Source: Aeromicrobium sp.
GTDB lineage: Bacteria > Actinomycetota > Actinomycetes > Propionibacteriales > Nocardioidaceae
Length of the DNA: 45,880 nt
Direction of reading: 5' to 3'
Assembly: GCF_025965075.1 (NCBI RefSeq)
Contig: NZ_JAOPXQ010000011.1
Span: forward strand, 1-45,880
Shown here in pieces: positions 30,252 through 31,912 of this stretch; the stretch's first letter is position 1, and each line of letters opens with the position of its first letter. Position numbers and translations under genes: made by a program. The notes beneath the pieces are model-generated. The model was not told where the DNA came from. It was given only the letters and a program-made list of their open reading frames with translations, and searched no databases.

Positions 30252-31013
30252 TCAGTCGGCTCGGATCGCCACGGTGCAGGCCAGGCCGAGGTGGTCCGAG
30301 CTGTCCGGCTCGGTGATCTGGACGCGGCCCTCGAGGGCACTGGCGCGGGGACCGAGGTAGATCGCGTCGAGGTGCTTGCCGCCCTGGCGCGGCGGCTCCC
30401 CGATGGGTCGGTGCGTGTCGTAGCCGACGTTCTCGACCTCGGTCGCGACCCGCCAGTCGGTGTAGCCGGCGGCCTCGAGGATCCCCCGCGGAGTGTCTTC
30501 GCGGACGACGGTGTTGTTGATGTCCCCGGTCAGGATGTCGATGCCGTGCTCGGCACCGAGCTCGGCGAGGCGGCGGCCCTGCACGGCGCGCGACTCGGCG
30601 GCCTTCTCCGGCGTGGTGTGCACCGACGACGACAGGTGGGTCGTCGCGCCGGTCCACTCGACGCCGGACGCGAGGTGCTCGTAGCGGGCGATCGTGACGT
30701 ACCGCTGCTGGCGGGTCCTCGTCCCCAGCGCGACCTCGGTCCAGTCCACCAGGCGGTGGACCGTCGGGTCGCTGTAGACGTCGTTGCACCCGTGCGGCGA
30801 CCGGGCCACGTCCCAGCCCGGGAGGATCTCCGCGAGGCTGCGGCGCTCGGCGCGTCGATTGACCTCCACGAGGAAGTAGACGCTCGCGAGCATCCCGTCG
30901 GGCCCGTTCATCTCCCGCCCGAGCATGACCGCCCGGCCGGGCCAACGGTGGTGCGTGCGGGTCCAGTTGGACCCCAGGACGTTCTTGAGCCCGATCCGGA
31001 ACGTCGCCACCAT
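30252..31013 (-). CDS. Endonuclease/exonuclease/phosphatase (EEP) family protein
   Basis: 253 residues, cytoplasmic. EEP landmarks are FRIGLKNVLGSN at the N-terminus, TGDINNT (the catalytic D-x-N core, about 163-169) and SDHLGLAC (SDH motif, about 239-246). The usual glutamate in the first strands is less clear, and an unusual early segment WPGRAVMLGREMNG replaces part of the canonical start. Members cleave phosphodiester bonds in nucleic acids or lipids, depending on subfamily. ATG 31013 is preceded by TAGCGT and 7 bases, a leaderless start. Divergent from the CPBP locus across a 7-bp inverted repeat. Confidence 0.78.
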   Translation of the reverse strand: MVATFRIGLKNVLGSNWTRTHHRWPGRAVMLGREMNGPDGMLASVYFLVEVNRRAERRSLAEILPGWDVARSPHGCNDVYSDPTVHRLVDWTEVALGTRTRQQRYVTIARYEHLASGVEWTGATTHLSSSVHTTPEKAAESRAVQGRRLAELGAEHGIDILTGDINNTVVREDTPRGILEAAGYTDWRVATEVENVGYDTHRPIGEPPRQGGKHLDAIYLGPRASALEGRVQITEPDSSDHLGLACTVAIRAD

Positions 31014-31020
31014 GGTCGCG

Positions 31021-31074
31021 ACGCTACCGGACGGACCTCGTCGAGCGGCGGTCTCGCCGCGAGACCAGTAGCGT
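31021..31074. promoter_or_regulatory. Divergent promoters flanking a GGTCTCG-CCG-CGAGACC operator
   Basis: Minus-strand TAGCGT (31026-31021) serves the EEP gene at 31013. Plus-strand TAGCGT (31069-31074) serves the 31083 leader frame. Between them a perfect dyad (31050-31056 and 31060-31066) sits 2 bases upstream of the plus -10 and would block both promoters if bound. Confidence 0.5.
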
Positions 31075-31082
31075 CGTGGGTG

Positions 31083-31136
31083 ATGTCCCTGATCCTGCAG
31101 ACCACCCGTCCCCCTCGGCCCGGAGCCGTCCGATGA
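31083..31136 (+). CDS. Possible 17-aa leader peptide coupled to the CPBP gene
   Basis: ATG 31083 is 8 bases after the -10 TAGCGT. The frame encodes MSLILQTTRPPRPGAVR and ends in TGA at 31134-31136, overlapping ATG 31133 of the CPBP gene as ATGA. This is a leaderless upstream reading frame that would deliver ribosomes to the main start, which has no good ribosome site of its own. A proline/arginine-rich end could allow stalling. Alternatively the CPBP gene starts at GTG 31076 in its own frame, only one base after the -10, which is implausible for a leaderless mRNA. Confidence 0.4.
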   Translation: MSLILQTTRPPRPGAVR

Positions 31137-31912
31137 GGCGCGCCTCCCGGCGCACCGACGCCCTCAGGTCCGAACTCCTCGCCGCCGTGCCGAGGGCGCT
31201 CCGCGACAAGGTCGAGCGCGACCACTGGGAGAGCGATGCCGCGTTCCGCCGTCGGCGCCGCGTGGTCGGCGGCGTCAGCGTCCTCGGCGCCGGCATGCTC
31301 GGCACGTCGCTGTCGACCGAGCCGGGCTCGAAGGCGTTCTACGGGATGACGTTGGGCGTCGCCGGGACGTACACTGCGGGCGCCTTCGCCTCCGGGCCGC
31401 TGCACCTGGGCTGGGAGGAGGGCGAGCAGCACCGACTTCGCCGCCCGCTCCTGACGCCGGTCGCGATGGGTGTCGGGGCGTTCGGCCTGTTCTACGGTGC
31501 CGCGCTCGTCGCCCGCAGGATCCCGGTGCTCAACCGCGCGCTGACCGACATCCTCGCCTACGCCGACCAGGGATCGGCGCCGCTGGTGACGCTCACGACC
31601 TTCGCCAACGGTGCCGCCGAGGAGGTCTTCTTCCGTGGCGCGCTGTACGCCGCGGCCGGGACCAACCAGCCCGTCGCGAAGTCGACCGCGGTCTACGCCC
31701 TGGCGACGACAGCCACCCGCAACCCTGCCCTCGTGCTCGCCAGCGGTGTCATGGGGGCGTTGTTCGGCCTGCAACGCCGAGCCACCGGCGGGATCCAGGC
31801 GCCGATGCTGACCCACCTGACGTGGTCAGGCCTGATGCTGCGGTTCATGCCGCCACTGTTCCGCACCCGCGGCAGCACCGAGGTGCAGCAGGGGATGCCC
31901 CCGCAGACCTGA
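31133..31912 (+). CDS. CPBP-family intramembrane protease-like protein
   Basis: 259 residues from ATG 31133. A basic N-terminus of about 40 residues precedes hydrophobic helices. The CPBP (Abi/Rce1) signature appears as NGAAEEVFFRGALYAAAG (about 160-177, EE-x3-R motif), followed by a later helix with ASGVMGALFGLQRRATGG and AQAPMLTHL-type histidine (MLTHLTWSG). These are the glutamate and histidine residues expected at the active site. Family members are membrane metalloproteases or prenyl-protein peptidases; in bacteria some handle bacteriocin immunity. Substrate unknown. Likely regulated by the dyad at 31050-31066 and by the leader frame. Confidence 0.82.
   Translation: MRRASRRTDALRSELLAAVPRALRDKVERDHWESDAAFRRRRRVVGGVSVLGAGMLGTSLSTEPGSKAFYGMTLGVAGTYTAGAFASGPLHLGWEEGEQHRLRRPLLTPVAMGVGAFGLFYGAALVARRIPVLNRALTDILAYADQGSAPLVTLTTFANGAAEEVFFRGALYAAAGTNQPVAKSTAVYALATTATRNPALVLASGVMGALFGLQRRATGGIQAPMLTHLTWSGLMLRFMPPLFRTRGSTEVQQGMPPQT

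Follow-up and report, generated by a model that had tools for sequence, protein, structure and literature searches.

A leaderless-type mini-frame overlapping the start of a CPBP protease gene in Aeromicrobium as a candidate ribosome donor

In mycobacteria, small leaderless frames coupled to the next gene by an RTGA overlap are supported by transcription start site mapping and by ribosome profiling (Shell et al. 2015, PMC4633059). In the sections of that report devoted to this class, 23 of 220 leaderless small frames were RTGA-coupled, compared with 32 of 1000 random ones, and an example is given in which the peptide has diverged but the RTGA linkage persists. Termination-reinitiation at ATGA overlaps is described in passages of two further papers (PMC12548453, PMC6728339), where the systems usually join two full genes. 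The first of these also includes an account of how mycobacterial interspersed repetitive units are inserted at start codons, bringing in a short upstream frame that keeps the gene coupled. In E. coli, according to a part of PMC4965119, there are mRNAs that carry a 5′-terminal AUG together with a gene start of the Shine-Dalgarno type.

Here we describe a related arrangement in a draft Aeromicrobium genome (labelled G000), found in a stretch of 45,880 nucleotides that was analysed as a whole and is called the window below. A predicted mini-frame ahead of a CPBP protease gene appears to belong to the known kind of Shell et al. (2015), with an evolutionary background that makes it of interest. It shares with the mycobacterial class, as far as the sections cited above define it, a predicted 5′-terminal RTG, a short frame (5–50 aa) and a TGA that overlaps a downstream RTG. 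It differs from that class in that eight relatives use its start position to begin CPBP itself. The likeness to the termination-reinitiation systems presented in those passages lies in the ATGA overlap and in a Shine-Dalgarno-like site inside the upstream frame. The donor here has 17 codons, unlike the full genes usually joined; for this CPBP family, the full-gene form is found outside the genus. A short upstream frame would keep the gene coupled, as in the described case of the interspersed repetitive units. Unlike in the case of those units, no repeat was found for the Aeromicrobium stretch: a search of its own genome gave no good second match (next best E 0.11). The same search led us to reject the idea that the stretch had been copied in from another site of the genome. 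The E. coli mRNAs, as presented in the part cited, come from another phylum and are alike in having an AUG upstream of a normally led gene. Among the literature matches listed, we found no account of leaderless genes in Aeromicrobium or of the CPBP arrangement, and the one listed paper with both "Aeromicrobium" and "leaderless" is, by title and abstract, a review on Streptomyces.

The locus consists of two genes, EEP-like and CPBP, transcribed apart from a common intergenic region. Its features are the following:

30252–31013, minus strand: EEP-like gene, an open reading frame of 253 aa with a leaderless-type start at 31013 and a predicted DNase I/TDP2-type fold
31021–31026 (read 31026–31021), minus strand: TAGCGT, putative −10 hexamer of the EEP promoter, 7 nt ahead of the EEP ATG (31013)
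31050–31066, no strand: perfect dyad GGTCTCGC-C-GCGAGACC, flanked by the two promoters and unlikely to be a conserved operator
31069–31074, plus strand: TAGCGT, putative −10 hexamer of the CPBP promoter, inside GTAGCGTCG (31068–31076)
31080–31136, plus strand: predicted leaderless-type mini-frame, (GTG)ATG SLILQTTRPPRPGAVR, with its stop TGA at 31134–31136
31122–31125, plus strand: GGAG, Shine-Dalgarno-like, 7 nt ahead of the CPBP ATG and within the mini-frame; at the same place in the sister genome G037
31133–31912, plus strand: gene for a CPBP (Rce1-like) intramembrane protease of 259 aa (PF02517, E 2.4e-11)

The match of the CPBP protein to PF02517 (44.2 bits) is above the gathering score of 22.4.

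An earlier note on this DNA had proposed two TAGCGT promoters that face apart, and both hexamers are indeed located where such promoters would have them. A TANNNT lies 6–7 nt ahead of the EEP ATG in 10/10 loci, and GTAGCGTCG is invariant across the same number of Aeromicrobium loci. From the plus TAGCGT it is 8 nt to ATG 31083 and 5 nt to the in-frame GTG 31080. This layout of a hexamer followed by an ATG is well above chance. The pattern TAGSSTCG-N3-6-ATG has 41 sites in the window genome, compared with 2 for the backward control. Across 49 genomes of the genus it has 2182 sites versus 295, with more hits than control in 47 of them. We read this enrichment as the mark of many leaderless genes in Aeromicrobium. 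Three small drafts of the genus (G028, G029 and G043; 1.5–2.2 Mb) showed little or no enrichment, with 9 versus 9, 8 versus 11 and 14 versus 7 sites, respectively. A scan for the sigma-70 consensus gave no match. Actinobacterial promoters have poor −35 boxes, hence such a miss is expected. The plus promoter is most likely an ordinary leaderless-type promoter of the genus, at which transcription would start close to the first codon and initiation would be leaderless. This agrees with the leaderless frame suggested in the note, for which both the distance of 8 nt and the genus-wide motif speak.

The ATG at 31083–31085 opens a frame of 17 codons, MSLILQTTRPPRPGAVR (18 codons if counted from GTG 31080), in a frame different from that of CPBP and within the class of short frames of 5–50 codons. 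Its TGA overlaps the CPBP ATG (31133–31135) to form ATGA at 31133–31136; direct reading thus bears out the geometry that the note had given for a 17-aa leader. The overlap is weaker evidence than it appears, RTGA being frequent by chance in the phase of the mini-frame. When frames in the same phase relative to five coding sequences of the window were walked to their first stop, 59% of 1467 walks ended in RTGA (26% in ATGA; stops are shared among walks).

More can be learned from the same position in relatives. CPBP was matched in 19 of the 49 genus genomes, with no CPBP match in the other 30. Ten loci, the window included, have EEP and CPBP and a visible 5′ side of CPBP, and in all ten the pair is divergent. 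Outside this set are eight remote CPBP paralogs (L013–L020; 43–51% identity), a locus from Propionibacteriaceae (L028) and the locus of G030 (L012/L027), whose contig ends inside CPBP. In G030 (L027), EEP is convergent with CPBP rather than divergent.

In eight of the ten genomes (G008, G044, G048, G002, G047, G035, G021 and G006), CPBP itself begins at the ATG or GTG located 6–8 nt behind TAGCGT; GTG serves as this direct start in G021. The same start position is out of frame with CPBP in G000 and G037 only, and these are also the only two loci of ten with the ATGA overlap. The earlier note, supported on the divergent promoters and the ATGA and unsupported, as set out below, on the operator and stalling, overlooked that its "leader" start is CPBP's own start in most relatives and that outside the genus CPBP is mostly joined to another gene by RTGA. 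G000 and G037 differ by about 8.5–15% over the adjoining genes, which argues that the mini-frame state is not one sequencing error. The N-termini of the direct-start proteins place about 24 or 11 residues ahead of a conserved RDH core.

A different form of coupling was observed in other genera. The family search gave a match in 243 of 341 genomes, and RTGA was examined in 20 new loci (L029–L048), chosen by best score and belonging to seven genera. These are not 20 independent cases because 10 come from one genus and L046–L048 are near-copies. All 20 fetched CPBP orthologs are immediately preceded, on their own strand, by an NmrA/NAD-binding epimerase-like gene (by tblastn for the 20, by Pfam for one). 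In 17 of them its stop shares RTGA with the CPBP start. The remaining three comprise one TGATG, one start located 4 nt after the stop begins and one locus (L031) in which no start was found. Coupling at 17 of 20 loci suggests that the CPBP protease and the NmrA/epimerase-like protein may act together.

We also compared the distance from the CPBP start to a conserved RRRR motif. It amounts to 38 residues in both G000 and G037 and to 39, 37 and 39 in L029, L030 and L032, three loci that branch outside the other 17 in the CPBP tree. As these distances agree, ATG 31133 would sit about where the RTGA start of the family sits. The start position discriminates little, since the long direct starts of Aeromicrobium (35–36 residues; the short ones have 22–23) are only 2–3 residues away and fall within the range of 23–41 seen over the 19 outgroup loci in which a start was identified.

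In the ten EEP-CPBP genomes, three of which are drafts of 87–95% completeness, the best epimerase-like match is at 43–47% and lies elsewhere in the genome; no match above 47% was found there. Epimerase-like genes at 58–62% were present in G031, G033, G040 and G042 only. In these four genomes a remote CPBP (43–47%) adjoins the epimerase-like gene in convergent orientation (L017–L020, L049–L052), and the CPBP-epimerase operon seems to have been rearranged. The mini-frame was also considered as a relic of an epimerase 3′ end and rejected, its similarity to such ends not going beyond that of shuffles (p 0.19 and 0.34).

Taken at face value, the promoter motif, the homology of the start position, the frame relation, the RTGA of the outgroup and the lack of conservation of peptide and dyad point to one explanation, to which we give a probability of roughly 0.55: the leaderless mini-frame delivers ribosomes to CPBP by termination-reinitiation. 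The transcript would begin at or within a few bases of GTG/ATG 31080/31083. Ribosomes would load at the 5′ end of the mRNA, translate 17 (or 18) codons, terminate at TGA 31134 and begin anew at the ATG 31133 that overlaps it, aided by the GGAG 7 nt upstream. Transcription start, leaderless initiation and reinitiation, as well as the direction of change discussed below, are what we infer from the comparison of sequences. RTGA being the rule in other genera, the mini-frame would stand where the 3′ end of the partner gene stands and would occupy the place of that NmrA/epimerase-like gene as ribosome donor. The presence of the coupled state in two species only counts against this explanation.

The peptide itself hardly seems to matter. 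Between G000 and G037, 5 of the 17 codons are changed, and all five changes are nonsynonymous. This ratio of 5 replacing to 0 silent changes differs from the 13:46 of the CPBP body (Fisher p 0.001) and from that of the N-terminal part of CPBP (p 0.026). The codon changes therefore suggest an unconstrained peptide. Most likely the mini-frame encodes no selected sequence, and its job would be the delivery of ribosomes. Coupling mediated by RNA structure was considered too: the predicted folds of the two genomes disagree, yet in both the GGAG has its first two bases largely paired.

The same lack of visible constraint fits the leading rival, which we hold to be about half as probable as ribosome delivery: CPBP may start alone at ATG 31133, through the GGAG on an mRNA with a short leader, the mini-frame being an incidental relic of the former start that is translated as a by-product. 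The GGAG at a distance of 7 nt in both species is what an independent start would use. The absence of purifying selection on most newly found M. tuberculosis frames, as stated in a portion of PMC9094748, also speaks for this rival. Against it, stop and start overlap exactly, CPBP mostly begins at an RTGA in the other genera sampled (17/20), and ribosomes loaded by a leaderless start would be present just upstream anyway.

An N-terminal extension of CPBP in its own frame, starting at GTG 31076 and giving 278 aa with the mini-frame never used, is improbable, even though some of the substitutions would suit it. The frame is open, and four of the six substitutions in 31083–31132 fall at third positions of the CPBP frame. 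Read in this frame, the mini-frame stretch has 3 replacing and 4 silent changes, indistinguishable from the 13:46 of the CPBP body (p 0.35). Composition tells otherwise. GC3 is 0.96 over 31133–31207 and 0.93 over the whole CPBP gene; just upstream of 31133 it is 0.69 in the CPBP frame and 0.76 in the mini-frame. The changed codons in 31133–31207 are 8 silent and 3 replacing, and this contrast, together with that of GC3, places the beginning of the CPBP coding signature at 31133. Additionally, GTG 31076, the sole start available, begins 2 nt beyond the end of TAGCGT, ahead of every RNA that this hexamer could initiate, and the extended protein would have 57 residues to RRRR, compared with at most 41 in orthologs. 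On these grounds the extension is disfavoured and the start of CPBP is placed at ATG 31133, the substitutions alone not deciding.

The earlier note had gone further and viewed the region as a compact switch, with a repressor on the dyad that co-controls EEP and CPBP and a Pro/Arg-rich nascent peptide that stalls ribosomes. The dyad it described, GGTCTCG-CCG-CGAGACC, is present between the promoters, and it is best described by 8-nt arms around 1 nt (31050–31057 and 31059–31066). Arms of at least 8 nt were obtained in about 1.8% of 2000 shuffles of the 61-nt intergenic region and in about 2.4% of 752 61-mers of the window, which makes the dyad unusual but hardly striking. In the genome the perfect GGTCTCG-N3-CGAGACC has a single site, and 29 sites fall within 2 mismatches, compared with 20 for the backward control. 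Across the ten loci it is perfect in the window only: one base breaks the copy of G037, and no dyad of this kind is found in the other eight orthologous intergenic regions, where the best dyads have arms of 3–6 nt and a different sequence. Additionally, the gap between the two −10 hexamers varies: five genomes have 42 nt, G047 has 39, G008 27, G021 and G006 12 each and G035 7. An operator common to EEP and CPBP is unlikely for these reasons, and the dyad was rejected as one after pattern scans of the window and the genome and the search for dyads in orthologs gave no support.

Nor did the stalling peptide withstand comparison with the sister genome. The tail reads PPRPGAVR in the window and PPQRGAGR in G037, and since every changed codon of the mini-frame replaces a residue, a stalling or attenuator peptide was rejected. 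In favour of the switch there are the perfect arms of the dyad, the divergent pair kept in ten genomes and an intergenic region that, up to the plus −10, is better kept between G000 and G037 than either EEP or CPBP. With the divergent pair upheld, and the operator and the stalling peptide left unsupported, we consider the switch as a whole very improbable.

At each of the gaps given above, two polymerases could hardly occupy both promoters at once, so mutual hindrance of EEP and CPBP transcription is plausible. Between G000 and G037 the intergenic region (31014–31074) has 1 change in 61 nt, compared with 72 in 762 for EEP (p 0.03, uncorrected for several comparisons), and some constraint beyond the −10 hexamers is possible.

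Least probable of all is that ribosomes begin at 31083 and shift frame to give CPBP a fused N-terminus: a CCCCC run stands at the same place in both species, but a shift of −1 (or +2) would be required, in the phase of the mini-frame the CCCCC does not have the form of a standard −1 heptamer, and a complete start with GGAG is available at 31133.

The product of the divergent neighbour was studied as well. The EEP-like protein of the window has no Pfam match up to E 10 and no match in NCBIfam or among PDB sequences, and the alignment of its orthologs found no PDB sequence up to E 0.1. Among 11 orthologs scanned, Exo_endo_phos was found in one (E 0.3) and DUF6087 in two (best E 0.0026). A low-confidence structural model (pLDDT 58) gave 41 PDB fold matches at E ≤ 0.001, all of them TDP2 or PDE12, the best being TDP2 (E 2.8e-6). 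The alignment of 11 genomes (A1) has a mean column identity of 83%. According to the model, the EEP-like protein may represent a conserved, undescribed branch of the DNase I fold.

To place the mini-frame state in time, we turned to trees of CPBP, EEP and leuS. The CPBP tree was built with over-extended N-termini for L034 and L035, whose starts are corrected in the comparison of distances to RRRR. leuS took the place of rpoB, which was unmatched in 4 of 15 genomes and fragmentary in G037. All three trees join G000 and G037, without settling whether these two form the sister group of the other eight. In the leuS tree the ten genomes group together (99/99), again with an unsettled basal order. 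A leuS from outside the genus, that of genome G337 (L098), is nested within Aeromicrobium, which hints at transfer; leuS is for this reason not a clean species marker.

Two routes lead to the observed distribution: either the coupled state is old and was deleted in the others, or the coupling was re-created by an inserted stretch of about 59 nt, as judged from an alignment. Where CPBP starts, together with the RTGA overlaps of the outgroup, speaks slightly for the old coupled state. The number of changes needed favours the insertion, unless the pair of G000 and G037 is sister to the rest. As a tentative scenario, somewhat less probable than not, CPBP kept its RTGA start through the loss of the partner gene, with the mini-frame as the new donor, and sister lineages then deleted the stretch in different ways to arrive at a direct leaderless start. 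If true, a series from operon coupling through mini-frame coupling to a leaderless start would be visible within this family.

In general, the locus suggests two origins for coupled small frames: the loss of the upstream partner of a coupled gene, or an indel by which a leaderless start and its gene come to lie in different frames. Relatives in a single genus, sharing one conserved promoter motif, offer a natural comparison between a direct leaderless start and a coupled mini-frame start of the same gene. Whether such mini-frames serve for more than ribosome delivery can thus be tested directly with orthologous 5′ regions.
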